DNA from: Thermincola carboxydiphila
GTDB lineage: Bacteria; Bacillota; Thermincolia; Thermincolales; UBA2595
DNA length: 64,000 nt
Assembly: GCA_016841725.1 (NCBI GenBank)
Contig: JAENYP010000009.1
Coordinates: 62,001 to 126,000, forward strand
Reading direction: 5' to 3'
Shown here: one piece after another, positions 2,937 through 27,238 of the stretch
Position numbering within the stretch: position 1 is the first letter of the stretch
Layout of the letters: every line of letters starts with the position of its first letter
The notes under the pieces: generated by a model
The model's database searches: none
Told to the model about the DNA's origin: nothing
What the model saw: only the letters and a program-made list of their open reading frames with translations
Translations under genes and position numbers: made by a program

Positions 2937-4997
2937 ATGAATAAAAAGTTGATCAGGTTAACCACCCAGATTCAAAATCTGAAGGATGCCTGCGAGATTA
3001 ATAAATATCTAAGTTTTCCCGATGAAAATGCCAATATAAAACAAATAATCTGCCGGGCAGCCCTGAATGACCTGGAGGTGGATGCCGGCATGATATTTAT
3101 AGATACGGGGCAGGGCTTTAACCCTGAAGCGGTATTAAATCTTCCCCAGCTTACTGAAAAAATGCCGGGCAGCCCGGGCTGCCATGAGGTACTGGAAGAC
3201 CTGGCTTTCAGGGGTAAACATTTTGTTTTACATACCAAAAGAGAAATTAACAGTTTTATAAAATCCCCTCTGAAAGAGATAATAAATGGATATGAGTCTG
3301 CCCTGGTTCATTTTTCGCAGCGAAAGTCTATCCGGCAGGCAGTAATAGGCTTATCTCAAGCGCCCGGATATTTTAATAAAAAGATGATAGATTCTTCAAT
3401 ACAAGCCTTTGAAAAAACCCTGTTTGCCTTGGACAGGTATAAGAATAGTGATTTGATCCTTGATGAAAATATTGTTGATGAAGAATACAGCCTTTTTGCC
3501 CCGGTTTGTGCTTTATTGTCCAGACTATTCCGGGCAGAGAAGTCTATTATTGCTTTGCTTGGTCAACAAAACCGGTTTGTTGTCAAAGGCTTTTTTGGTG
3601 AGAGTAAATCTGTCTGGGGAACCGTACTGGAGGCAGCTGATGGAAACTCCATTAAGGATATAAGCGGACTTAATTATAAGAACATGCTTTGTGTTCCAAT
3701 TAAGTGTAACAATAGTCTCCAAGGTTTTGTCAGTGTTATCAATAAATGTGATGAATATTTTTCGCACTATAAGGACTTTGATTCAGAAGACCACCTCCTG
3801 TTGACCTTATTGGCCGGCCAGATTGGCCTGTTAGTGGAAAACAGATCGCTTTTCAGGATGCAGAGAGAGTCCCTTGAGACGACTATCCATTCCCTGGTCC
3901 AGGCATTGGATGCCAGGGACCCTTATACTAAAGGACACTCTGAACAGGTCTCCCAGCTTGCTATAATGATTGCCAAAGAGTTAAGTTTACCGGCAGAGGA
4001 AATTGAGGATATCAGGTTAGCAGGGCTGCTCCACGATATCGGGAAAATAGGTATTCCGGAAAAAATATTAAATAAGCCGGATAACCTTACTTCAATCGAG
4101 TTTAACCAGATAAAGGTTCATCCATATATCAGCGCCCAGATCTTAAAACCCATCGCGCTGTTTAAACCCCTGCTGCCTTTTGTTTACCACCACCATGAGC
4201 GCTGGGACGGCAAAGGCTATCCTGATGGATTAAGAGGTGAAGCTATTCCACTGGGAGCCAGGATACTGGCGGTTGCCGATGCCTTTGACGCCATAACGGC
4301 AGACCGTGTCTACCGACCGGGCAAAGGTAATAATGCTGCTGTAAATGAGCTGATTAAGTGGGCAGGCATTCAGTTTGATCCCTTGATTGTTGACGCTTTA
4401 CTAACCGGTCTGGAGAAAAAATTGTTTCAGGATAAAGTGGACTCTGAATGGCAGTTTGATAAATTAAGTAATGTTTTTGAGGATGTTCTGGATGCGGTTA
4501 CCAGAGGGCGTTTGGTTATTTCGGATGACTGGGATATTACCCGGCTGAGCAGTGAAGGGGAAAAACTGGGGCAGGCAGTTGTGAAAGAACCCGGTGATGT
4601 TAGGATGGTCCGCCAAGCAGTAAAAGACTATCTGAAATACAGGGTGCCTGACCCGGAAGTCAATAAATTCCTACTGTGTATTTCAGAGGTGGCTACCAAT
4701 ATGGTGAAACATGCTTCCGGAGGTATGCTGGCATGGTATTTGTGTAATGACGGTAAGATCAGGGTAATGGCTGAAGACTCCGGACCGGGTCTGAGCCTGC
4801 GGGATTTACCCAAGGCTACCCTTGTCAGAGGGGTGAAAGACAATAAAGCATTAGGATTAGGGTTTACTCTCCTGATGGAATTAATGAATAAAATATATTT
4901 AAAGACAGGTGAGCATGGTACTACCGTTATTCTGGAACAGAAACTGGATTACAGTACCGGTAACGAAGAGGTATCAACTGCCAATAAAGCAATTTGA
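2937..4997 (+). CDS. GAF / HD-GYP phosphodiesterase fused to an RsbW-like ATPase
   Basis: A 686-residue protein that unites two signalling outputs. The N-terminal ~310 residues look like one or two GAF-like sensor regions. An HD-GYP domain follows (about 318-490) with intact signatures: HD in LLHDIGKIGIP (His about 366), HHHERWDGKGYPDGL, and DAFDAITADRVYR; this family hydrolyses c-di-GMP. The last ~150 residues are a GHKL ATPase of the RsbW/SpoIIAB anti-sigma type, with SEVATNMVKHA as N box and EDSGPGLSL as G1 box. The ATPase is related to the C-terminus of the membrane protein at 9491, including the shared lead-in DAVTRGRLVI / HAVTQGKLSL. ATG 2937 follows GGGGGGCCGG. First gene of a six-gene run ending at 10780. 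The combination suggests that c-di-GMP turnover and a partner switch are controlled together; this is inference. Confidence 0.85.
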   Translation: MNKKLIRLTTQIQNLKDACEINKYLSFPDENANIKQIICRAALNDLEVDAGMIFIDTGQGFNPEAVLNLPQLTEKMPGSPGCHEVLEDLAFRGKHFVLHTKREINSFIKSPLKEIINGYESALVHFSQRKSIRQAVIGLSQAPGYFNKKMIDSSIQAFEKTLFALDRYKNSDLILDENIVDEEYSLFAPVCALLSRLFRAEKSIIALLGQQNRFVVKGFFGESKSVWGTVLEAADGNSIKDISGLNYKNMLCVPIKCNNSLQGFVSVINKCDEYFSHYKDFDSEDHLLLTLLAGQIGLLVENRSLFRMQRESLETTIHSLVQALDARDPYTKGHSEQVSQLAIMIAKELSLPAEEIEDIRLAGLLHDIGKIGIPEKILNKPDNLTSIEFNQIKVHPYISAQILKPIALFKPLLPFVYHHHERWDGKGYPDGLRGEAIPLGARILAVADAFDAITADRVYRPGKGNNAAVNELIKWAGIQFDPLIVDALLTGLEKKLFQDKVDSEWQFDKLSNVFEDVLDAVTRGRLVISDDWDITRLSSEGEKLGQAVVKEPGDVRMVRQAVKDYLKYRVPDPEVNKFLLCISEVATNMVKHASGGMLAWYLCNDGKIRVMAEDSGPGLSLRDLPKATLVRGVKDNKALGLGFTLLMELMNKIYLKTGEHGTTVILEQKLDYSTGNEEVSTANKAI

Positions 4998-9133: not shown

Positions 9134-9475
9134 ATGTTAGAGATTGAAACCAGTAAAGGGGAATCCGTTATTTGCTTAAAACTATCGGGTGAGCTGGAAA
9201 TTTCGACTGTGGAACAGCTGCGCATGTGTGTGGAACGGCTGTGCCTGTGTGTGGAACGGCTGCCTGACGGATTGACCGAAGTTCATTTGGATTTTTTCGG
9301 AATTGAATTTGTTGATTCGACCGGTATTGGCACACTTATAAATGTAATGAAAGATTTACGGGAACAGGATATTAAAGTAATGGTAACACGAATTCCCAAA
9401 GAAATATATGAAGTATTTGATTTGCTCAGTATCCCTGAGTTAATGGGTGAGGATTCATTTGAGTGTCTTAGCTGA
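9134..9475 (+). CDS. STAS-domain anti-anti-sigma factor with a 7-residue internal duplication
   Basis: A 113-residue single STAS domain protein, the expected switch component: it binds an RsbW-like ATPase when unphosphorylated. The conserved phosphorylatable Ser is in EFVDSTGIGTLINV. ATG 9134 follows GGAGGT by 7 bases; a frame extension to 9119 is unsupported. In the first helix the segment MCVERLC is followed by LCVERLP: a 21-base unit at 9221-9241 is repeated at 9242-9262 with 19 of 21 bases identical, adding exactly seven codons. This makes the domain slightly longer than usual. Partners by position are the phosphatase at 6141 and the ATPase proteins at 2937 and 9491. Confidence 0.85.
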   Translation: MLEIETSKGESVICLKLSGELEISTVEQLRMCVERLCLCVERLPDGLTEVHLDFFGIEFVDSTGIGTLINVMKDLREQDIKVMVTRIPKEIYEVFDLLSIPELMGEDSFECLS

Positions 9476-9490
9476 GGAGTTGAAAAACAT

Positions 9491-10780
9491 ATGAAACGGA
9501 AGACTTTAAAACAAAAGTCTAACAGCTATTTCGCAGTATATGCGGGTATTGTGGCATATTTTATACTGGGCTTGGTAATTGTCACACAGTTTATTGCTTA
9601 TCGGGATATAATGTATAAAAATTTTGTTCGGGATATCGAACTTGAAGCCAGTTTGCTAATACATGTCATAGAAAGTCCATCAGAAAATAAAGACCTATAC
9701 CGGAATCTTAATAAGCAATTGAGTGAACAGCTTCAAACAGAGATTAACCACAACAGGGGAAAATACCGGAATATTTTAAATATCGAAGTTTCCGGTTTTG
9801 ATTCCGGAACAGATAGTTTTTACAGTCTGGCATCTGTTGATGTCGGTATGCAGAGAAAACTAACCTGGCCGGAAAGGCTTTCTGCCAGGGTGGCTGATTA
9901 TATTAATCTCGGCACCCGGTCTGTTTGGTATAACGGGCATGGTTATATTGCCCAAGGGTCTTTTGATCATGTGTTAGACGGCAAAAAATACAGGATGAAA
10001 ATCACCAGTGATGCTAATGGTTATATTCAACAGCAGATTTGGGCAATTTTTGCTTTGGGGCTGCTGATGGCTGGGGTGGTAGTGGTTTTAGCACTGCAGT
10101 ACAGGGTTGTAGTCGGTCAGTTAAAGAAGTCCCAGGAAATTTTAGAGTCAGAGCTTGTGGTTACCAAACGGCAAAGAGAAAAAATATTTGCTGTCTACAG
10201 AGACGTCATTCACGCGGTCACTCAGGGAAAACTGTCCCTGGTCGGGCGGGAAGAGGTGCGGCAGCATACAGTTGAAGGCGAAAAAATTTTGGAAATACGG
10301 ATTAGGACCCAAGAAGATGTTACTTTGGCCAGAAGGGAAGCAAAGCGGATCATAAATTCACTGTATTCCGAATATGAAGGTTCAATGAAAGTGCTGCTCT
10401 GTATTGCGGAAGCGGCAGCCAATATTATCAAACACGCAGGGGCAGGAGTATTTATTATTAGAAAAGTAAGTGATTATTCAATGAAGTTTATATTTGAAGA
10501 TCAGGGCCCCGGTATGGATTTTGATGTACTTCCGGAAATGATTTTTTATAAGGGTTTTTCCACAAAAATTTCGGCGGGTTGTGGGTTCAGCTTAATTTAC
10601 GGTTTTGTAGATAAATTGGTTCTTTTCACATCAAAGGTCGGGACAACCCTTATATTTGATGTTGTATTTGCCAACCGGCAGCGTAACAGCCGCCAGGGTG
10701 CAGATATTTCCGTAACAGATAAGCGGGATAAGGGAATATCGGGATGTGGTGTAAACACGGAAGTGTCTCTGGAATTTTGA
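9491..10780 (+). CDS. Membrane sensor with RsbW-like anti-sigma/serine kinase domain
   Basis: A 429-residue membrane protein. A first transmembrane segment (about 15-37) and a second (about 183-203) enclose ~145 residues outside the membrane, a probable sensor. The cytoplasmic part (about 240-405) is a GHKL ATPase with an E-x3-N box (AEAAANIIKHAG) and EDQGPGMDF, ending GTTLIFDVVF, closest in style to anti-sigma kinases rather than to His kinases; no phospho-acceptor His domain is present. It resembles the C-terminus of the protein at 2937. A tail of about 30 residues is low-complexity. ATG 9491 has GAGGAGTTG upstream. It would be the sensory kinase arm of the partner switch, opposed by the phosphatase at 6141. 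No sigma factor gene lies in the window. Confidence 0.8.
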   Translation: MKRKTLKQKSNSYFAVYAGIVAYFILGLVIVTQFIAYRDIMYKNFVRDIELEASLLIHVIESPSENKDLYRNLNKQLSEQLQTEINHNRGKYRNILNIEVSGFDSGTDSFYSLASVDVGMQRKLTWPERLSARVADYINLGTRSVWYNGHGYIAQGSFDHVLDGKKYRMKITSDANGYIQQQIWAIFALGLLMAGVVVVLALQYRVVVGQLKKSQEILESELVVTKRQREKIFAVYRDVIHAVTQGKLSLVGREEVRQHTVEGEKILEIRIRTQEDVTLARREAKRIINSLYSEYEGSMKVLLCIAEAAANIIKHAGAGVFIIRKVSDYSMKFIFEDQGPGMDFDVLPEMIFYKGFSTKISAGCGFSLIYGFVDKLVLFTSKVGTTLIFDVVFANRQRNSRQGADISVTDKRDKGISGCGVNTEVSLEF

Positions 10781-15059: not shown

Positions 15060-16259
15060 TTATGCGATCCGTAGATACTTGTGTTCGGTCAGAGATATTT
15101 TCCGGAACTCCCCATACTTGTATTTGGTTAAGATGTTCTTCGCTCCATGAATATCCCTGTGCTCCTGATATCCGCACAGGCAGCTGTAATTTCTGGAGGA
15201 GGTTCTTTTCCTCCTCCCACAAACGGGACACGTTTGTGTTGTATAGGCTTCGTCTACTTTTTGCAGGCTTATCCCTTCGGCTGCCAGTTTGTATTGGAGA
15301 TATTCGGTGGTTCGGCCATATTGCCATTGGGACATTTTCTGGTTATGTCTGGGTGAACGTTTGTGCTTGTTTTTCTTCTTTTTGGGAGAGGTGTTACGTT
15401 CAATCCCGGCTACGTCTCCCACCACGACTTCCCTGACTTGATTTTCCAAGCACCAGTTAACAAATTCGCGGGTTGTTTTATGGAGGACATCAGTCAACTG
15501 GGCATTACTCTTGGCTAAAATGTAGTTAAAAGCCCGGCGGTATTTTTTCCACTGACGGGAGCCCTTTTCACATTTGGCCAGTTTCTTTTGCAGCTGTTTC
15601 AATTTCTTGTTGCGCAATCGTTTGATGCTTCGCTGCCTGCGACCGGTGATGATCATTCCTTGCCCATGATCGGTTACTGAGACAATTGTATGGATTTCAC
15701 CCAGGTCTATTGCGGCAATGCACAGGTTATTGTTTGCTTTGGGACCTTGGCTGTCATCGTAGGTAACAGCTAATTGCAAACCCCGGTCATAGATGAGTTC
15801 GATCTCTTTGACCTTACCGGGTGGCAGCTTCTTAATCCGCACCGCAATTGGCTTTTGGCGTTTGCCGCCAAAGAGACCAAGGCTTAACTTAATCTTCCCA
15901 TTTTCAAGAATTTGAAACCCATCCTTTTTCCACTTGGTATTGAAGTGCTGCTTCTCCTTATATGGATAGCGGATTTGGGTATAGCCCGATACCCGGGCTT
16001 GCCGGGCATTGTTCCTGGCATCCAGATATTTTTCAAATATGGCTTGGATAGACTGACTGTGGATTGGGTACTGCCCTTTGGTGGCATAGTGTAAAGACCT
16101 TTGGCCAATCCATTTACCGGTTTGTTGGAAGTGCTCTTTAGCCAGGCGCAGGCACTCATTCCAAACCTGTGCTGATACACGGTTGCAGGCGAATAGACGG
16201 TCGAGATTTTCTTTGGATGTACGGAACTTTGTTTTTAAGGCTCTTATAATACTGAACAC
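15060..16259 (-). CDS. tnpB: TnpB RNA-guided nuclease
   Basis: A 399-residue TnpB. It has an N-terminal helix-rich/OB part, an Arg/Lys-rich stretch at 205-245 and a split RuvC nuclease: Asp185 in AAIDLGEIH, the C-terminal Asp369 in HRDIHGAKNIL, and a zinc ribbon CPVC ... CLC (344, 347, 360, 362). At the RuvC-II position it has VVVGDVAGIERN rather than the usual E-D-L; the glutamate is replaced by Gly-Asp, and nearby candidates are Asp282, Glu287 or Glu337. The family makes RNA-guided DNA cuts that help keep the element at its site. Length is standard and the frame is intact. The start at 16259 has an AAAGGAGGTG site upstream on the minus strand. Confidence 0.88.
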   Translation of the reverse strand: MFSIIRALKTKFRTSKENLDRLFACNRVSAQVWNECLRLAKEHFQQTGKWIGQRSLHYATKGQYPIHSQSIQAIFEKYLDARNNARQARVSGYTQIRYPYKEKQHFNTKWKKDGFQILENGKIKLSLGLFGGKRQKPIAVRIKKLPPGKVKEIELIYDRGLQLAVTYDDSQGPKANNNLCIAAIDLGEIHTIVSVTDHGQGMIITGRRQRSIKRLRNKKLKQLQKKLAKCEKGSRQWKKYRRAFNYILAKSNAQLTDVLHKTTREFVNWCLENQVREVVVGDVAGIERNTSPKKKKNKHKRSPRHNQKMSQWQYGRTTEYLQYKLAAEGISLQKVDEAYTTQTCPVCGRRKRTSSRNYSCLCGYQEHRDIHGAKNILTKYKYGEFRKISLTEHKYLRIA

Positions 16260-16432: not shown

Positions 16433-16484
16433 TAATGGAGAAATTTGATGGATATCAAAAGCAAAATTGAAAAGGATGTGCAAG

Positions 16485-18044
16485 ATGGCTAAGAGTAACA
16501 AGAACAATAACGAAGAACCAATCGAAAAACAGCTTTGGAAGGCGGCAGACAAACTGAGAAAGAATATTGATGCAGCCGAATACAAACATATTATTTTGGG
16601 TCTGATTTTTTTACGATATATATCTGATGCCTTTGAAGAATTATACCGGAAATTAGCAGCAGGTGAAGGGGACTTTGCTGGCGCTGACCCTGAAGACAAA
16701 GACGAATATAAAGCAGAAACTGTCTTTTTTGTTCCGGAAAAGGCCCGCTGGTCTTACCTGCAGTCAAGGGCAAAACTACCGGAAATCGGTAAAGACGTTG
16801 ATGGCGCAATGGATGCGATTGAAAAAGAGAACCCGTCCCTTAAGGACGTTTTACCAAAAGTTTTTGCAAGAGGTAACCTTGACCCCGCAAATTTGGGCGG
16901 GTTGATTGACTTAGTCGGAAACATTGCCCTGGGTGATGCCAAAGCCAGGAGCGCCGACATTCTGGGTCATGTTTTTGAATACTTCCTCGGTGAATTTGCG
17001 TTAGCTGAAGGGAAGAAGGGTGGACAGTTCTATACCCCCAGAAGTGTTGTCGAGCTACTGGTGGAAATGCTGGAGCCTTACAAAGGCAGGGTGTTTGACC
17101 CCTGCTGCGGCTCAGGTGGAATGTTTGTACAATCGGAAAAATTTGTCCAGGACCACCAGGGAAAAGTAAACGACATCTCCATTTACGGGCAGGAGAGCAA
17201 CCAAACAACCTGGCGTTTGGCAAGAATGAACCTGGCCATCAGGGGGATTGACAGTTCACAGGTAAAATGGAACAATGAAGGTTCTTTTTTAAATGACCGT
17301 CACAAAGACTTAAAGGCCGACTATGTTATTGCCAACCCGCCTTTCAATGACAGTGACTGGAGCGGTGATTTACTCAGAAAAGATGGCAGATGGAAGTATG
17401 GTACGCCGCCCACCGGAAATGCCAACTATGCCTGGATACAGCACTTCATTTATCACCTCAGCCCCAGTGGACAAGCCGGGTTTGTGCTGGCCAAAGGGTC
17501 TTTGACCTCCAAGAGTTCCGGTGAAGGTGATATCAGAAAAGGACTTATTGATGCCCGGTTGGTTGACTGTATTGTGAATCTTCCGGCAAAACTCTTTTTG
17601 AATACACAGATTCCGGCCAGTTTGTGGTTTGTGAGCAGGAACAAAGCAAACGGTAAATTCCGCAACAGAGTTGAAGAAATTCTGTTCATTGATGCCCGGA
17701 ATATGGGACATCTGATAAACAGAAGAACACGGGAGTTATCGCAAGAAGATATTAAAACAATAGCGGATACTTACCATAATTGGCGTAATCCTGATGGCAA
17801 TTATGAAGACATAAAAGGCTTTTGTAATTCTGCAGCTATTGAAAGGGTCAGGGAACTGGATTATGTGCTGACACCGGGCAGGTATGTCGGTCTGCCTGAG
17901 GAGGAAGATGATTTTAATTTTGAAGAAAGATTTACAAGCCTGAAAAAAGAGTTTACCGAACAGCTTAAAGAAGAAGAAAGGCTGAATGCCTTAATCCTTG
18001 AAAATCTTGCCAGGGTGGTGATTGGTAATGGCAAAGATAGATAA
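16485..18044 (+). CDS. hsdM: Type I restriction-modification DNA methyltransferase subunit
   Basis: A 519-residue N6-adenine methyltransferase, the M subunit of a type I system. The N-terminal helical domain ([32 protein letters not shown]) is characteristic of HsdM. The catalytic part shows [17 protein letters not shown], the SAM motif [11 protein letters not shown] (about 205-215) and the catalytic NPPF (about 282). ATG 16485 is preferred to TTG 16467 because AAAGGA lies about 8 bases upstream. It leads the defence island; the rhuM remnant overlaps its end by 17 bases and hsdS lies about 1.7 kb downstream. Confidence 0.93.
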
Positions 18045-18913
18045 TATGAATGAAGTGCTGATGTATCAAACCGAAGATGGACAAACAAAAATTGAAGTGA
18101 GGTATCAGGATGAGACCGTGTGGCTATCCCTCAGCCAAATGGCCGAGCTGTTCCAAAGGGATAAGTCAGTTATCTCCAGACATATAAAAAATGTGTTTGC
18201 TGAAGGTGAATTAGAACATTTAGCAACTGTTGCAAATTTTGCAACAGTTCAAAAAGAGGGCGTTAGGACCGTCGGAAGAGATGTTGGTTACTACAACCTT
18301 GATGTTATAATTTCGGTAGGATACCGGGTGAAATCCCATCGGGGTACACAATTCAAAAAAGGTTTTCTGGCGGCAGGTTCTGGATATTTATGCCACCAGT
18401 ATTGATTACGATTCCAGGGCGAAGATTACCCAGACCTTTTTTAAAACGGTGCAGAACAAAATGCACTGGGCGACCCACGGGCATACTGCGGCAGAAATAA
18501 TTGCCGGCAGGGCTGATGGGACTAAAGATAACATGGGTATGACCAACTTTACAGGAAGCAGACCCAGCCTTGAGGAAGCAAAGGTGGCTAAAAACTATCT
18601 CAATGAACAGGAACTGGATGTCTTAAACCGCATTGTTTCCATGTACCTGGATTTTGCCGAACTTCAGGCTTTAAATGGCAGGCCGATGTATATGACTGAC
18701 TGGGCTAAAAAGCTGGATGATTTCCTGCGGACCAGTGAGCGGGACATACTCACCCACAGCGGCACGGTTTCCCATGCTGAGGCGCTGGAAAAAGCCCGTC
18801 GGGAGTATGATATATACCGGGAGCGGATCAAAGAACTGCCTACTCAGGTAGAAAAGCACTTTCTTGAGACTGAGAAGGAACTGAAAAGGCTGGCGAAGAA
18901 GGTTAAAAAGTAG
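18028..18913 (+). pseudogene. rhuM: Broken RhuM-family gene (internal deletion and frameshift)
   Basis: The 5' part (ATG 18028 to stop 18405) encodes the RhuM N-terminus: YQDETVWLSLSQMAELFQRDKSVISRHI and VGRDVGYYNLDVIISVGYRVKSHRGTQF. Just after GTQF the family sequence stops. From about 18361 the next frame encodes VFWRQVLDIYATSIDYDS and continues with TAAEIIAGRADGTKDNMGM, KNYLNEQELDVLNRIVSMYLDFAE and SHSGTVSHAEAL-type sequence to a stop at 18913. About 45-50 family residues between the two parts are missing and the frames no longer join. RhuM proteins are often found with type I systems; this copy should be non-functional. ATG 18028 has AGGGTGGTG upstream. Confidence 0.82.
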
Positions 18914-18961
18914 GGCAACTGAGAATGGTTACAGAAAGTTGTGCCAAGGTGGGGGTTAGCA

Positions 18962-19786
18962 ATGGCTAAGATTAATGTGATGAATAAGGAAATATCATTT
19001 TATACTGTGAATGAAGATGATTATATCTGCATTACGGATATTGCGAAGTATAAAAAGGAAGATGGTTCTGATGACATTATTAGAAACTGGATTCGAAATC
19101 GCAATACAATTGAATTTTTAGGTATATGGGAGCAGCTTAACAACCCGGATTTTAAACCCGTCGAATTCGACGGGTTTAGAAAGATGGCTGGGCTTAACAG
19201 TTTTACCCTTACTCCTAAGCAATGGATAGAAACCACCAACGCTATTGGGATAATCTCTAAATCTGGCCGGTACGGCGGGACATATGCTCACAAAGATATT
19301 GCTTTTGAATTTGCCTCATGGATATCGGTTGAATTCAAACTGTATCTTATTAAAGAGTTTCAGCGTCTTAAAGACCAGGAAAGAAAACAGCTCGGCTGGG
19401 ATATCAGAAGAAACCTGGCCAAAATAAACTGCCGAATTCACACAGATGCCATTAAGGAAAACCTTATCCCGGCTAAGCTGAGTAAAGCACAGATCAACTA
19501 TATTTATGCATCTGAGGCGGATATATTAAATATGGCGCTTTTTGGCATAACAGCAGCCCAGTGGAGGGATGAAAACTCTGACAAGAAGGGGAATATCAGG
19601 GACTACGCCAATGTTTCCCAGTTGGTCTGCCTGGCTAATCTGGAAAATCTTAATGCCCTTTTTATAAATGAAGGTATGCCACAAGAAGCCCGCCTTGAAA
19701 GGCTGAATAAAATTGCCATCCAGCAAATGCAAATTTTAGCCGACGGTTCAAGGCTAAGAAGGCTGGAGGGCAACAGTGATGAGTGA
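18962..19786 (+). CDS. KilA-N domain protein
   Basis: A 274-residue protein. The first ~150 residues match the KilA-N fold of phage and virus DNA-binding proteins: ICITDIAKYK, IIRNWIRNRNTIEFLGIWEQLNNPDFKPVEF and SKSGRYGGTYAHKDIAFEFASWISVEFKLYLIKEFQRLK. The C-terminal ~120 residues (INYIYASEADILNMALFGITAAQWR) occur with this domain in R-M neighbourhoods. ATG 18962 follows AGGTGGGGG by 8 bases. Its opening, MAKINVMN, resembles that of the rhuM remnant (MAKIDNMN), which points to a shared regulatory or phage-derived origin. It ends 8 bases inside the start of hsdS, so the two are translationally linked. Its role in the locus is unknown; DNA-binding regulation is likely. Confidence 0.82.
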   Translation: MAKINVMNKEISFYTVNEDDYICITDIAKYKKEDGSDDIIRNWIRNRNTIEFLGIWEQLNNPDFKPVEFDGFRKMAGLNSFTLTPKQWIETTNAIGIISKSGRYGGTYAHKDIAFEFASWISVEFKLYLIKEFQRLKDQERKQLGWDIRRNLAKINCRIHTDAIKENLIPAKLSKAQINYIYASEADILNMALFGITAAQWRDENSDKKGNIRDYANVSQLVCLANLENLNALFINEGMPQEARLERLNKIAIQQMQILADGSRLRRLEGNSDE

Positions 19787-20897
19787 GTGGAAGGAATGTA
19801 AGCTGGGGGATGTGGCGATTTTTCAAAGAGGTCATGATCTTCCCAAAAAAGAAATGTGTAATGGAATAATTCCGGTTGCTGGATCCAACAGTATAATTGG
19901 TTATCATAATAAATCTACAACTAAGGGACCTGGAATAACAATTGGACGAAGTGGGAATATTGGAACACCAAGATTTTATAAAACTGATTTCTGGGCTCAC
20001 AATACTACACTATACGTGAAAGACTTTAAAGGAAATGAAGAAAGGTTTATATTTTATTTATTGCAATCACTTGATCTTACAGGATTAAATGCTGGAAGTG
20101 CGGTTCCTACATTAAATAGAAACCATGTTCATGAAATCTCCGTAATTGTACCCCAACTCCCTGAACAAAAAGCCATTGCCTCCGTCCTAAGCAGCCTTGA
20201 TGATAAAATAGACCTGCTCCACCGTCAGAATGAAACCCTTGAAGCAATGGCAGAAACGCTATTCAGACAGTGGTTTGTGGAGGAAGCGGAAGAGGATTGG
20301 GAGGAGAAGAGTTTACTTGAAATTATTCAGTTAGTTGGTGGAGGAACACCAAAAACATCCGTAGAAGATTATTGGAATGGTAATGTTTTCTGGTTATCTG
20401 GTGGTGACATTGCTTCAAATCATAAGTCATTTGTTGTTTCTTCAGAAAAAACGATTACAGAAGCAGGCTTAAAAAATAGCTCTGCAAAGTTACTACCTCA
20501 ATATGCAACGGTTATTTCAGCAAGGGGCACTGTTGGAAAGTATTGCATTATATCAAAACCAATGGCTTTTAGCCAATCAAATTATGGAATATTACCTAAA
20601 GATAGAACTGGTTTTTTCTTTACTTATTTACTTATTAATCACATTGTTGCAGAATTACAGTCATCTGCTTATGGCAGTGTTTTTGATACAATAACTACAA
20701 CAACGTTTAAGGAAATAGTTGTTTCAGTACCGTCTAACGATGACATTAAAACATTTGAGGATGCTATAGATCCATATTTTCAAAAAATTCTTGCCAACAT
20801 AATGCAAATTCATGCGCTTGAAAAACTGCGGGATATTTTACTACCTAAATTAATAAGCGGAGAAGTTAGAGTATTGCTGGAAGGAAAGATGAGATAA
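19779..20897 (+). CDS. hsdS: Type I restriction-modification specificity subunit
   Basis: A 372-residue S subunit that sets the DNA target for HsdM and HsdR. Two target-recognition domains (about 1-120 and 180-310) are each followed by a conserved spacer helix: LPEQKAIASVLSSLDDKIDLLHRQNETLEAMAETLFRQWFV in the middle and DPYFQKILANIMQIHALEKLRDILLPKLISGEVRV at the end. The second recognition domain (VGGGTPKTSVEDYWNGNVFWLSGGDI) is of a common type. ATG 19779 follows GGCTGGAGGG; GTG 19776 is possible. The recognition-domain codons are more A/T-rich than hsdM, as is usual for exchanged S subunits. The target sequence cannot be read from this. Confidence 0.92.
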   Translation: MSEWKECKLGDVAIFQRGHDLPKKEMCNGIIPVAGSNSIIGYHNKSTTKGPGITIGRSGNIGTPRFYKTDFWAHNTTLYVKDFKGNEERFIFYLLQSLDLTGLNAGSAVPTLNRNHVHEISVIVPQLPEQKAIASVLSSLDDKIDLLHRQNETLEAMAETLFRQWFVEEAEEDWEEKSLLEIIQLVGGGTPKTSVEDYWNGNVFWLSGGDIASNHKSFVVSSEKTITEAGLKNSSAKLLPQYATVISARGTVGKYCIISKPMAFSQSNYGILPKDRTGFFFTYLLINHIVAELQSSAYGSVFDTITTTTFKEIVVSVPSNDDIKTFEDAIDPYFQKILANIMQIHALEKLRDILLPKLISGEVRVLLEGKMR

Positions 20898-20950: not shown

Positions 20951-21021
20951 GTGTCGGGGTGTATTCTGCATGTTAGTTAAGACATTAGGTGTGGATCTTC
21001 ATGGGGAGAGAGGTTATGTAT

Positions 21022-23976
21022 ATGGAGAAAGTCCATAAATACATTCAGGAACTGACAAAAGCTTCTAAACAAGGAAAACTCGTGTTTTTCCTAGGCGCAG
21101 GGCTTTCAGCGCTTTCAGAGTACCCTCAGTGGAAGGAATTAGTTGATAAATTTTATATAGAGCTAGATGGAAAAACGAAAGTAGGCTATTATTCATCCGA
21201 CGAATACTTGAAAATTCCACAAAAATTTTTCGCTGTAAAAGGCGAGGATGAATATGACAGAATTCTTGAGGAAGTGTTTTCGGTAAATAAATCTCCAAAT
21301 CCGATACATGATATGATTTTAGCAATGAATCCTGTACATATCATTACAACAAACTATGATGATTTGATTGATAAGGCATGTTGGCAACGGGGGCGATATT
21401 TCAGCATCATTAGCGCTGAGGAGGATGTTGCAAAAGTGACTTCCTCAAGGTATTTGCTTAAAGTACATGGCGACTTCAGACGAGGCTTTAAAGGTAGACA
21501 TGTAGTATTGAAAGAGAGCGACTACATAAATTATGAACACAAGTACGCATTGATTAGCAACCTTATGAAGACAATTATGGCTACCCATGTCATCGTTTTC
21601 ATGGGTTATGGTCTAGGGGATTACAATATTAATTTAATATTGAACTGGGTAAAACAGTTACAGAAAGATGGATACAATAAACCTTTTTTTATTCGTACAG
21701 ATTATGAACCTATTGAAGCAAAGGATGCTATATATTATGAAAATAAAGGGCTTCGCATCATAGATGCTGCCAGCATTAAAGACGTTGGTGAGAAAGAATA
21801 TATTACGCGGTACAGCAATGTAATGGATTTACTTATTGAGTCGAAGGACAATAACCTGCTATCCCAAGACGAGGATATCGTTGAATACCTATATCAAAAG
21901 CTTTGTCCGCTGTTTGTGCTTCGGTATGTTCGAAAAACTGATTTCAAGTATATTTTTGAATACGACTACCATTTCGAGGTACATGGCGTGGTAGTTCGTA
22001 ACAAGAACAAAGGTTTTGGATATTTGGAAAGGTTCTTCGAATTAAAAGAAAAGGACATAGATAATCTTTCCGAAGAGTCAAAGTGGAAATTCATAGCAAT
22101 CTCGGAATTCTTTGAGCGAAATGGCATCCTCTGCATGATGGAGGATAAAGGTAATATAACAATCAGTACTTCGTTAGAGATTGAAAGTTGGGCATATCAC
22201 TGCAATTACGATGAAATGGAGGGTTTTGTCCAACTGCAATTTAGTAATCTTGAAAACGAGTATAAAAAAGCGTTTTTTTTAGCAAATCTGGGTAGATGGA
22301 AAGAGGCATACAACCTATATTCAGACCTCTTGCTGAAATCAATTGACGAATCTAACTGGTGGATACACTATCTTTCGCAGGTCAACAGGTATTGGCTATA
22401 TCAATCTATTATTCAAACTGTCAAAAATTTTGGCAGCGTCCCTGGATTGTTGGCGTTCGGAAAGCACTACAAGCCATTTACAGAAGAATTCCTGAATTGT
22501 ATAGAAAGGGAAATGAAGAATTTTGACATCAATGATGTTTTTGATGGTATGCCATATGAGTTTCAGGATAAATACTTAATTCTCAAGTTTCTTAGCGACA
22601 ATGAGTTTTTGTATGATGACACGGTGAAATTGTTTGAACTGACAAACAAGGTTCGCTCTGAAATAAGTAAAGGTTCTTATTCACTTGGCGGTCTGACGCC
22701 TAATATCGAAGTACAGTTTCGTCTGAATGATAACATTCGTTTTCTTTATGAGAACGCTCTGTGGTTGACTTCCTTCCAGGAATTCAAGCAATACATGCGT
22801 AATTCACTTATGCTTCAGTTTGAAAAAGCTGAATACGAGCAAACCCGGGATATTGATGATTTCGGTGTTTTTCTTGGAGCAGAGAGATCAGACTTTTATA
22901 TTGATTATTATGATTTCGTCAATGTGGCCAAGTCATTTAGCATTGATGACATCAGATACGTTGAACGGAGCTGCAAGATTGAGCGGATTGAGTTTCGTGA
23001 TATGGAGGATATTGAATGCTATCTGGTACGAGTTGCAAAAGAGATTATCAAACATTTCTCGAAGGATGGTATGAGTATTGTTTTCTACAACTTGTTCATC
23101 CATGAAGCTAAAGCAGCGTTCTATTTCGCGAGATACATAAGACTTTCTGAGGAAGGTTTCATCACAATACTTAAAGCATTATTGTTTTATTTTCCTGAAA
23201 GGGATCTGGATATTGGGAAACGTTATCTATGGGTTAAACGCTTGACTCTGGGCAGTGGTCTACCTAGAAAAGCAATTTTTGTCATTGAGGAATTTCTAAT
23301 CGGTCAAGCTGATAAGCACAAAGACAGCAATTTTTTAGAACAAACATCTAACGGCCTATTTTCAAGTAACTTTGTAAATTTAATTCGGCATTTCGAAAAG
23401 GATTTTTTATCAAGCGATTTGTCCAAATATGCATTGAAACTTTCCGAAGACATGAAGAACCAAGTCGATTTCATGTACCGGTTATCGCCTCTCCTATCTA
23501 TTGAAGCTAAAAGTCATATTTCGAAGCTTAAGAAAATTGACGATATTGACAGCTTAATGGATAGTGTGCACATAGGTGTAGTTGAGGATGTGTCTGAATA
23601 TAAAGATATTATCATAAAGTTTATGGATAAACGTAAGTCAGATATTCTCGCAGATAAAGAGAAAGGAGTTATTGTAGGATATGCCGATAACTATTTTGTG
23701 ACGTTTGGCATTTGGTATTTTCTTGGTAAGTTTACTAATCCGAAGATGAAAGATTATCTTGGTGTTAACGAGGAATACGACATGTTCGTAGATCCAGATA
23801 ATTTCGACTATAAAAAGTTGAGTCCGGCTTGGCTTAAGAGTTATAGTGATAAACTTTTGAAGAAAATGGTTGAAAACGAGACTATGCGTACACATATAGT
23901 TGAAGTTTTAAAAGAGCGCATGCAAAATAGCAATGACAAAAAGTATTTCGAGATATTCACGAAGTGTTTAATATAA
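21022..23976 (+). CDS. dsr2: DSR2-type anti-phage SIR2 NADase
   Basis: A 984-residue protein with an N-terminal SIR2 domain (about 10-290) and a long helical C-terminal part. From memory of Bacillus DSR2, similarity runs the whole length: KLVFFLGAGLSALSEYPQW, SSDEYLKIPQ, HIITTNYDDLIDKACW, YLLKVHGDFRRGFKG, IVFMGYGLGDYNINL, EKGVIVGYADNYFVTFGIWYFL. Asn111 and His149 are 38 residues apart, as are the DSR2 catalytic Asn133 and His171, so NADase activity is probably intact. In DSR2 the C-terminal part senses a phage tail-tube protein, NAD is then destroyed and the cell stops growing; some phages block it with DSAD1. ATG 21022 is chosen for spacing from GAGAGAGG. The gene is visibly more A/T-rich than hsdM and hsdR, a sign of transfer. 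No DSAD1-like gene is nearby. Confidence 0.87.
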   Translation: MEKVHKYIQELTKASKQGKLVFFLGAGLSALSEYPQWKELVDKFYIELDGKTKVGYYSSDEYLKIPQKFFAVKGEDEYDRILEEVFSVNKSPNPIHDMILAMNPVHIITTNYDDLIDKACWQRGRYFSIISAEEDVAKVTSSRYLLKVHGDFRRGFKGRHVVLKESDYINYEHKYALISNLMKTIMATHVIVFMGYGLGDYNINLILNWVKQLQKDGYNKPFFIRTDYEPIEAKDAIYYENKGLRIIDAASIKDVGEKEYITRYSNVMDLLIESKDNNLLSQDEDIVEYLYQKLCPLFVLRYVRKTDFKYIFEYDYHFEVHGVVVRNKNKGFGYLERFFELKEKDIDNLSEESKWKFIAISEFFERNGILCMMEDKGNITISTSLEIESWAYHCNYDEMEGFVQLQFSNLENEYKKAFFLANLGRWKEAYNLYSDLLLKSIDESNWWIHYLSQVNRYWLYQSIIQTVKNFGSVPGLLAFGKHYKPFTEEFLNCIEREMKNFDINDVFDGMPYEFQDKYLILKFLSDNEFLYDDTVKLFELTNKVRSEISKGSYSLGGLTPNIEVQFRLNDNIRFLYENALWLTSFQEFKQYMRNSLMLQFEKAEYEQTRDIDDFGVFLGAERSDFYIDYYDFVNVAKSFSIDDIRYVERSCKIERIEFRDMEDIECYLVRVAKEIIKHFSKDGMSIVFYNLFIHEAKAAFYFARYIRLSEEGFITILKALLFYFPERDLDIGKRYLWVKRLTLGSGLPRKAIFVIEEFLIGQADKHKDSNFLEQTSNGLFSSNFVNLIRHFEKDFLSSDLSKYALKLSEDMKNQVDFMYRLSPLLSIEAKSHISKLKKIDDIDSLMDSVHIGVVEDVSEYKDIIIKFMDKRKSDILADKEKGVIVGYADNYFVTFGIWYFLGKFTNPKMKDYLGVNEEYDMFVDPDNFDYKKLSPAWLKSYSDKLLKKMVENETMRTHIVEVLKERMQNSNDKKYFEIFTKCLI

Positions 23977-24013: not shown

Positions 24014-27000
24014 ATGACTAAAATCACCGAATCTGCCATAGAAAAATTCGCCATAGAACTCCTCCAACGGCAGGGCTACCACTACATCTACGCCCCGGAT
24101 ATTGCCCCTGACAGCGACACCCCGGAAAGGCAGTCCTTTGAAGAGGTGCTGCTGGTGGATCGACTACAGACAGCTGTTGGCAGGATAAACCCAACGATTC
24201 CGCCTGATGTCCGGGAAGAGGCCGTCAAACAAATCCAGCGCCTCAACTCACCGGAACTGATAGCCAATAACGAAGTATTTCACCGGATGCTCACCGAAGG
24301 AATAAAAGTAAGCTGGCAAAAGGACGGAAACAACAGGGGAGACATAGTCTGGCTGATTGATTTTAAATACCCCGATAACAATGATTTTATTGTTGCCAAT
24401 CAGTTTACGGTAATCGAGAACGGAGTAAATAAACGCCCAGATATTATTCTTTTTGTAAACGGACTGCCTTTAGCTGTTATTGAACTCAAAAACCCTGCTG
24501 ATGAAAATGCCACCATAAACGCCGCTTACCGCCAGATGCAAACCTACCTGCAAGCTATTCCAAGTCTTTTCACTTACAACGGTCTTATAGTTATATCCGA
24601 TGGTTTGGAAGCAAAAGCAGGTTCACTGTCTGCCGCTTTAAGCCGTTTTATGACCTGGAAATCATCTGACGGTAAAACAGAGGCATCGCCATTAATCGGG
24701 CAATTGGAAACGCTGATTAAAGGAATGCTTAATAAGGATACATTGCTGGACACGATTCGCCATTTCATTGTATTTGAAAAATCAAAAAAAGAAGATCAGG
24801 ATACCGGCATTATCACTATTCAGACAGTTAAAAAATTAGCTGCTTATCACCAGTATTACGCGGTAAACAGGGCAGTAGAATCCACCTTAAGAGCTGCAGG
24901 ATTTTCACCATCGCCAACCGTAAATCTTGCTAAGGAATCACCCGAAAGTTACGGTGTGCCGGGTGTCAAGCTGCAGCCTGCCGGAGACCGTAAGGGCGGC
25001 GTGGTCTGGCATACCCAGGGAAGCGGGAAATCCTTGTCGATGGTGTTTTATACCGGGAAAATCGTACTTGTTATGGATAATCCTACCGTTGTGGTGATAA
25101 CGGACCGCAATGATTTGGATGACCAGTTATTTGATACATTCGCTTCTGCAAAACAGCTTCTCAGGCAGGAACCTGTTCAGGCAGAAAACAGAGAACATCT
25201 GAAAGAACTTTTAAGAGTGGCCTCCGGTGGCGTGGTTTTTACAACAATTCAGAAGTTCCAGCCGGATGAAGGCAATGTTTACGAACGGCTTTCAGACAGG
25301 AAAAATATCATTGTCATTGCCGACGAAGCCCACCGGACACAATACGGTTTTAAAGCCAAAACGGTTGATGATAAGGACGAACAGGGAAATGTAATCGGTC
25401 AAAAAACTGTTTATGGTTTCGCAAAATATTTGCGTGATGCCCTGCCCCATGCAACTTACCTCGGTTTTACCGGAACTCCTATCGAAAGCACAGATGTAAA
25501 TACACCTGCAGTTTTCGGCAATTATGTTGATGTTTACGACATTTCACAGGCTGTTGACGATGGGGCAACAGTAAGGATTTATTATGAAAGCAGGTTGGCT
25601 AAGATTTATCTCAGCGAAGAAGGTAAAAAGCTGGTTGCCGATTTGGATGATGAACTGCGTGAGGATGATTTGACTGAGGCCCAAAAGGCCAAGACAAAAT
25701 GGACTCAATTGGAGGCTTTGATTGGGAGTGCAGACAGGGTCAGACAGGTTGCCCGGGATATTGTTGACCATTTCGAGCAAAGACAGGAAGTGTTTGAAGG
25801 TAAGGCTATGATTGTTTCCATGTCAAGAAGGATTGCCGCCGATCTATATGATGAAATTATTAAAATTAAACCACATTGGCACAGTGACGATTTGAAAAAA
25901 GGCATCATCAAAGTGGTGATGACCTCAGCCTCTTCGGACGGACCAAAGATATCACAGCACCACACGACAAAAGAGCAGAGACGGGTATTGGCAGCTAGGA
26001 TGAAAGACCCGGGAGATGAGTTGAAACTCGTCATTGTGCGGGATATGTGGCTGACAGGTTTTGATGTTCCTTCCTTACATACTCTGTATATTGATAAACC
26101 TATGAAAGGCCATAACCTGATGCAGGCTATTGCCAGGGTAAACAGGGTTTATAAAGATAAGCCTGGCGGGTTGGTGGTGGATTACCTTGGGATTGCCTCA
26201 GACCTGAAAAAAGCGCTGGCTTTCTATTCTGACAGCGGCGGTAAAGGTGACCCGGCAATTACCCAGGAAAAAGCCGTAAGATTAATGCTGGAAAAACTGG
26301 AAGTTGTTTCTCAAATGTATCATGGATTTTCATATGAGGATTATTTTGATGCAGATACGTCAAAAAAACTGTCCCTTATCCTGGCAGCTGAGGAATATAT
26401 CCTGGGTCTGGAAAACGGCAAAAAAAGATATATTGATGAAGTGACAAAATTATCAAGGGCCTTTGCAATTGCCATTCCCCACGAACAGGCCCTGGATGTG
26501 AAAGATGAAGTCTCGTTCTTCCAGGCTGTAAAGTCCAGACTGGCTAAGTTTGACAGTGCCGGAGCAGGCAGGACAAACGAAGAAATTGAGACCGCAATCA
26601 AACAGGTAATTGATAAAGCCTTGGTAACTGAGCGGGTAATCGATGTTTTTGACGCAGCCGGGATTAAAAAACCGGATATTTCCATACTCTCAGAAGAATT
26701 TCTTATGGAAGTCAAAAATATGGAGCACAAAAATATAGCTCTTGAAGTCCTTAAAAAACTGCTTAATGATGAGATAAAGTCAAGGACTAAAAAGAACCTG
26801 ATACAAAGCAAGGCTTTAATGGAAATGCTGGAAAACTCAATTAAAAAATATCATAACAAGATAATAACCGCAGCAGAAGTTATTGAAGAATTGATTTCAC
26901 TGGGCAAAGATATTCAAAAAATGGATAAAGCGCCTCAGGAAATGGGTTTGTCCGAATATGAGTATGCCTTTTACACAGCCATTGCCAATAACAAAAGCGC

Positions 27001-27238
27001 CAGGGAATTAATGCAACAAGATAAATTGAGAGAATTGGCTGTGGTCCTCTATGAAAAAGTGAAAGCAAATGCATCAATAGACTGGACAATAAAAGAAAGT
27101 GTCAAAGCAAAATTAAAAGTGATTGTCAAAAGGACTTTAAGGCAATACGGTTATCCCCCCGATATGCAGAAACTGGCCACAGAAACAGTATTAAAACAGG
27201 CTGAATTGATTGCAGAGGAATTAAGCCCTAGTGGATAA
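24014..27238 (+). CDS. hsdR: Type I restriction endonuclease motor subunit
   Basis: A 1074-residue R subunit that translocates and cuts DNA. The N-terminal nuclease has the PD-(D/E)xK pattern in [20 protein letters not shown] (about 143-161). The helicase motor has Walker A [10 protein letters not shown] (about 335), [17 protein letters not shown] box [11 protein letters not shown] (about 435) and motif III LGFTGTP (about 485), later [33 protein letters not shown]. The helical C-terminus binds HsdM. Length and motifs are complete, so the system appears functional. ATG 24014 has GAAGGTG 11 bases upstream. It lies 37 bases after the SIR2 gene, suggesting shared transcription. Confidence 0.94.
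   Translation: [1074 protein letters not shown]

Follow-up and report, generated by a model that had tools for sequence, protein, structure and literature searches.

DarTG2 of EPEC is embedded between hsdS and hsdR (PMC12255303), and comparable positions are held by TgvAB of V. cholerae and RloF of C. jejuni (PMC11411939); the hsdS-hsdR junction was thus already known as a place for cargo. Protection by TgvAB is independent of HsdR cleavage (PMC11411939), and the embedded systems studied experimentally in this slot are read as complementary defenses (PMC11411939, PMC12255303). PrrC, whose gene lies within a type IC locus, is set off when EcoprrI is inhibited (reviewed in PMC12707154).

In the 64,000-nucleotide stretch of DNA that we analyzed (the window), the junction holds a gene for a DSR2-type NADase, dsr2. 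The protein is of a known kind and its operon address is new; the embedding itself is not peculiar to DSR2 but one more use of a known slot for interchangeable cargo.

The dsr2 gene and its host operon

The operon is transcribed from the + strand in the order hsdM, a broken rhuM, a KilA-N gene, hsdS, dsr2, hsdR. HsdM, HsdS, and HsdR are all intact with their domains and make up a type I restriction-modification operon: hsdM (16467 to 18044) encodes a 525-aa DNA methyltransferase subunit with an NPPF motif (Pfam N6_Mtase, 2e-110; HsdM_N), hsdS (19776 to 20897) a 373-aa specificity subunit (Methylase_S), and hsdR (24014 to 27238) a 1,074-aa restriction subunit (HSDR_N, SWI2_SNF2, and T1RH-like_C) with PD-ExK, Walker A, and DEAH motifs. 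Between hsdM and hsdS lie the gene for a 281-aa KilA-N protein (18941 to 19786; Pfam KilA-N, 3.8e-24; PADLOC PDC-S22, 8.7e-136) and the rhuM-like gene (18022 to 18913, +; PADLOC PDC-S05), which survives as fragments 18022 to 18405 and 18449 to 18913 and has lost 134 bases at about position 18355 relative to an intact 338-aa copy in a congener (G002; locus L046). We rejected the idea that the operon is broken, since the hsd genes are intact and rhuM alone is damaged. The gene abutting the operon upstream (15060 to 16259, − strand) is of the IS605 OrfB/TnpB type and encodes a Cas12f1-like TNB domain.

The dsr2 frame (21022 to 23976, +) is intact (984 codons, 984 aa) and comprises a SIR2 domain (about residues 1 to 288), a middle domain, and a C-terminal sensor domain. 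The frame stays open as far up as GTG 20989, but ATG 21022 is the likely start because a purine-rich, Shine-Dalgarno-like run read directly from the sequence, GGGGAGAGAGG (21002 to 21012, +), ends nine bases before it. The coordinates agree with the placement given in the preliminary description, between hsdS (ending at 20897) and hsdR (starting at 24014), with 37 bases between the dsr2 stop and hsdR. The same description credited dsr2 with its own weak promoter, which our scans do not bear out: the 124-bp gap between hsdS and dsr2 contains no consensus promoter, and a relaxed scan of it gave only 9-of-12 matches, two of them poorly spaced, a class of site that is not above chance (37 over the whole region versus 28 ± 5 in shuffles). 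The gap could still hold a promoter. No + strand terminator-like site was found between hsdS and dsr2, which fits read-through from hsd. At 36.2% GC, dsr2 is indeed more A/T-rich than hsdM (44.6%) and hsdR (43.1%), as had been noted; however, low GC does not single it out, because hsdS is equally A/T-rich (36.3%). Codon usage in dsr2 is not unusual for the neighborhood and therefore does not speak for recent transfer; the argument for transfer is one of synteny.

On sequence grounds, positions 21022 to 23976 encode a full-length orthologue of the NADase DSR2. A phmmer search against all PDB chains matched the B. subtilis DSR2 structures to residues 6 to 980 (E = 0, 1,331 bits), and 582 of 971 aligned residues (60%) are identical, with homology running through the SIR2 (67% identity), middle (62%), and C-terminal sensor (52%) domains. 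The identification as a full-length DSR2-type protein is thereby upheld. Alignment with B. subtilis DSR2 had been set beforehand as the refuting test, and in it similarity extends well beyond SIR2; the alternative of similarity confined to the SIR2 domain is ruled out by alignment through the middle and C-terminal domains. A structure prediction from a four-row alignment was unusable (pLDDT 40, pTM 0.28) and was discarded.

Using pairwise alignment, we mapped onto the window protein the residues reported in the DSR2 cryo-EM papers (PMC10981675, PMC11087589). The proposed catalytic pair, Asn111 (codon 21352 to 21354, +) and His149 (codon 21466 to 21468, +), aligns exactly with N133 and H171 of DSR2, with a spacing of 38 residues. 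D135 and W59 of the C-pocket (D113 and W37 in the window protein) and Y282 are likewise identical, as are 10 of 11 X-dimer residues and five of six relay residues between the SIR2 and middle domains. At the head-to-head tetramer interface I259, Y260, and V94 are kept, and Y71, D188, and I90 are changed. The window protein would very probably kill phage-infected cells by destroying NAD. Tail-tube contacts are identical at 7 of 10 positions in site 1, 6 of 8 in site 2, and none of 3 in site 3; sites 1 and 2 together (13/18) do not clearly exceed the 60% background identity, so these residues do not prove a tail-tube trigger, which orthology makes likely. The differences at site 3 and the changes at Y71, D188, and I90 mean that the trigger may differ.

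Exchange of cargo at the hsdS-hsdR junction

The congener carries the same operon and flanking genes at 93 to 97% identity (hsdM 97.5%, kilA-N 94.7%, hsdR 95.8%), with rhuM intact. Its HsdS, however, is only 33% identical to that of the window, with different target-recognition parts, and at its hsdS-hsdR junction a 219-aa Abi_C protein stands where the window has dsr2. DNA homology between the two runs up to position 19816, reappears only in the central repeat of hsdS (20157 to 20303), and resumes at 24074; this break indicates a joint difference in hsdS and cargo. A more distantly related operon (L047) has nothing in its junction, with about 50 bases from the hsdS stop to the hsdR start, so that the window has about 3 kb of extra DNA. 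We found no direct repeats of at least 8 bases joining both ends of the dsr2 insert.

We surveyed the slot in 26 related operons with a readable junction, consisting of the window and loci from a 399-genome sample of its phylum. Nine junctions were empty, two held transposases only, and 15 held other genes, of about ten kinds; these counts are descriptive, because some of the loci come from one and the same genome and the genomes sampled represent one phylum. The occupants were DSR2 (the window), Abi_C, DUF1828/1829, an OLD-like ATPase, FRG, and GmrSD (two operons each for the last five), and, once each, an AbiP2-type reverse transcriptase, DUF3644, KilA-N, and a SIR2-HerA pair, the last at positions 3400 to 11492 of L063 (G147:C33:82001-94000). 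The short Abi_C proteins (216 to 219 aa) fill this slot in two of the phylum's genomes (L046, 4854 to 5513; L049, 3753 to 4403), and no PADLOC model matched them at the thresholds used.

Distribution of DSR2

The other close dsr2 relatives that we found are in two Bacillaceae chromosomes (L003, L004), in one further genome from their order (L043), and on a Priestia plasmid (L005); none of the four has hsd genes beside it. Profile searches detected full-length DSR2 in 1 of 399 genomes of the window's phylum (the window itself) and, around L003, in 2 of 399 genomes of the order and 2 of 400 of the class (the same two genomes); a similar search in the class of G093 reached just four genomes and is uninformative. 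Within the 60 nearest relatives searched, dsr2 turned up in no genome but the window's own. The preliminary description had called for a survey of dsr2 between hsdS and hsdR; the window is the only case found, in a quite incomplete survey, in which the large genome collection was scanned a single time with six short peptide patterns. Among plasmids, the Priestia protein was the one full-length DSR2, and 380 other records matched, those listed being confined to the SIR2 part; phage records gave one match, SIR2-only. Viral contigs scanned with the protein and with its alignment yielded no relative, and the window's own genome has no match to Phage_TTP_1, the one tube-protein family searched there. 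We did not find DSR2 in a type I operon in the papers searched (subscription papers and preprints were outside the search).

Several neighboring features came to light in these searches. A 923-aa protein that is DSR2-like in SIR2 only (L045, 9376 to 18347) adjoins two HsdM-like genes and one HsdS-like gene. A conserved, divergent gene of 164 aa lies just upstream of the stand-alone Bacillaceae dsr2 (9186 to 9680, − strand, in both L003 and L004), with a serine-recombinase-like gene close by; this is probably a mobile element.

The PADLOC model named Dsr2 (PDLC02184) matches neither the window protein (E up to 0.01) nor the L003 or L043 DSR2 (E up to 1e-10) and evidently describes a different protein set, so annotation with this profile would miss DSR2 of the B. 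subtilis type. No NCBIfam model names the window protein.

Proposed function and comparison with known systems

We favor, with good confidence, the reading that the window carries a chromosomal DSR2 orthologue, acquired as interchangeable slot cargo, that serves as an autonomous, tube-triggered suicide sensor cotranscribed with hsd. This reading builds on the orthology, the intact catalytic and relay residues, the intact hsd genes, and the slot exchange between congeners; from these we infer NADase activity, the tube trigger, cotranscription, and independence from the Hsd proteins. The hsd transcript would yield DSR2 alongside the restriction enzyme, and DSR2 would stay idle as a tetramer. A siphophage that escapes restriction would make tail-tube protein late in infection, and the monomeric tube protein would presumably bind the middle and C-terminal domains of DSR2; the SIR2 domains would then hydrolyze NAD+, and the infected cell would stop before phage release. 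Restriction and DSR2 would act independently and at different stages, the former on incoming DNA and the latter in answer to tail-tube protein made late, an order suggested by their known modes of action; they would have in common their transcription and their horizontal movement as a single block. The layered defense put forward in the preliminary description is thus a fair reading insofar as it means two complementary defenses in one transcription unit, which is also how the studied slot systems have been read.

The sensor raises the question of whether this DSR2-fold NADase answers instead to a different trigger, another phage structural protein. We regard this as unlikely: the C-terminal domain has drifted most (52% identity versus 67% for SIR2) and no site 3 contact is identical (0/3), but the hydrophobic contacts of sites 1 and 2 are mostly kept (13/18). 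Decay of rhuM in the same operon, which lost 134 bp, the lack of another dsr2 among the 60 nearest relatives searched, and the three changed tetramer-interface residues would suit a passive or decaying passenger that came with the hsdS exchange and, like rhuM, is unexpressed or no longer working. That dsr2 retains 984 intact codons, its catalytic, dimer, and relay residues, and a good ribosome-binding site makes such a fate quite improbable.

A tighter coupling, in which the restriction complex regulates DSR2, would make it a guard in one coupled system, silenced by or sensing the type I enzyme and firing, PrrC-like, on an anti-restriction protein or when a phage disables or escapes that enzyme. 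The precedent of PrrC, triggered by EcoprrI inhibition in a type IC locus (PMC12707154), indicates that coupling to restriction is possible, and dsr2 has a comparable operon setting; the SIR2-HerA pair in the same slot would, if the guard model were true, be in keeping with a broader link between sirtuins and type I restriction. We found no regulatory connection of dsr2 to restriction. We nonetheless consider a guard very improbable, because DSR2 brings a phage sensor of its own, made up of tube-binding domains (the middle one 62% and the C-terminal one 52% identical to the protein of known structure), and has no extra domain for Hsd contact, its length matches that of the stand-alone proteins, and the other four dsr2 loci lack hsd neighbors. 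Since those four lie outside restriction operons, DSR2 does not need Hsd and probably works alone, as in the autonomous sensor that we favor. The congener pair, with dsr2 or Abi_C in the same operon, offers a natural test of whether cargo is autonomous or restriction dependent.

The closest relative of known structure is DSR2 of Bacillus subtilis 29R (WP_029317421; PDB 8k98, 8wkt, and others), a collinear full-length orthologue at 60% identity with the same catalytic pair and similar dimer and relay residues. The window protein differs from it at the site 3 tube contacts and at Y71, D188, and I90; its gene lies inside a type I restriction operon; and its host is outside the Bacillaceae, which host the other copies found. 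DSR2 of the B. subtilis type, found here otherwise in Bacillaceae chromosomes and on a plasmid, is thus now known from a type I operon, and a structurally solved suicide sensor joins the genes that use the hsdS-hsdR junction. The SIR2-HerA pair of L063 likewise places a SIR2 NADase-type system in this slot, within the same phylum, but it consists of two genes, SIR2 and HerA, is not DSR2, and stands beside an hsdR split in two frames. Like DarTG2, TgvAB, and RloF, dsr2 is a second defense placed in the slot of a restriction operon; unlike them, it encodes one sirtuin of the NAD-depleting type, and at the head of the operon, inspected by means other than a profile search, we noticed no RptR-like repressor gene. 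PrrC of the EcoprrI type IC operon is also an abortive-infection effector inside a type I operon, but it fires when the restriction enzyme is inhibited, whereas DSR2 carries a sensor for phage within itself and stands alone at other loci.
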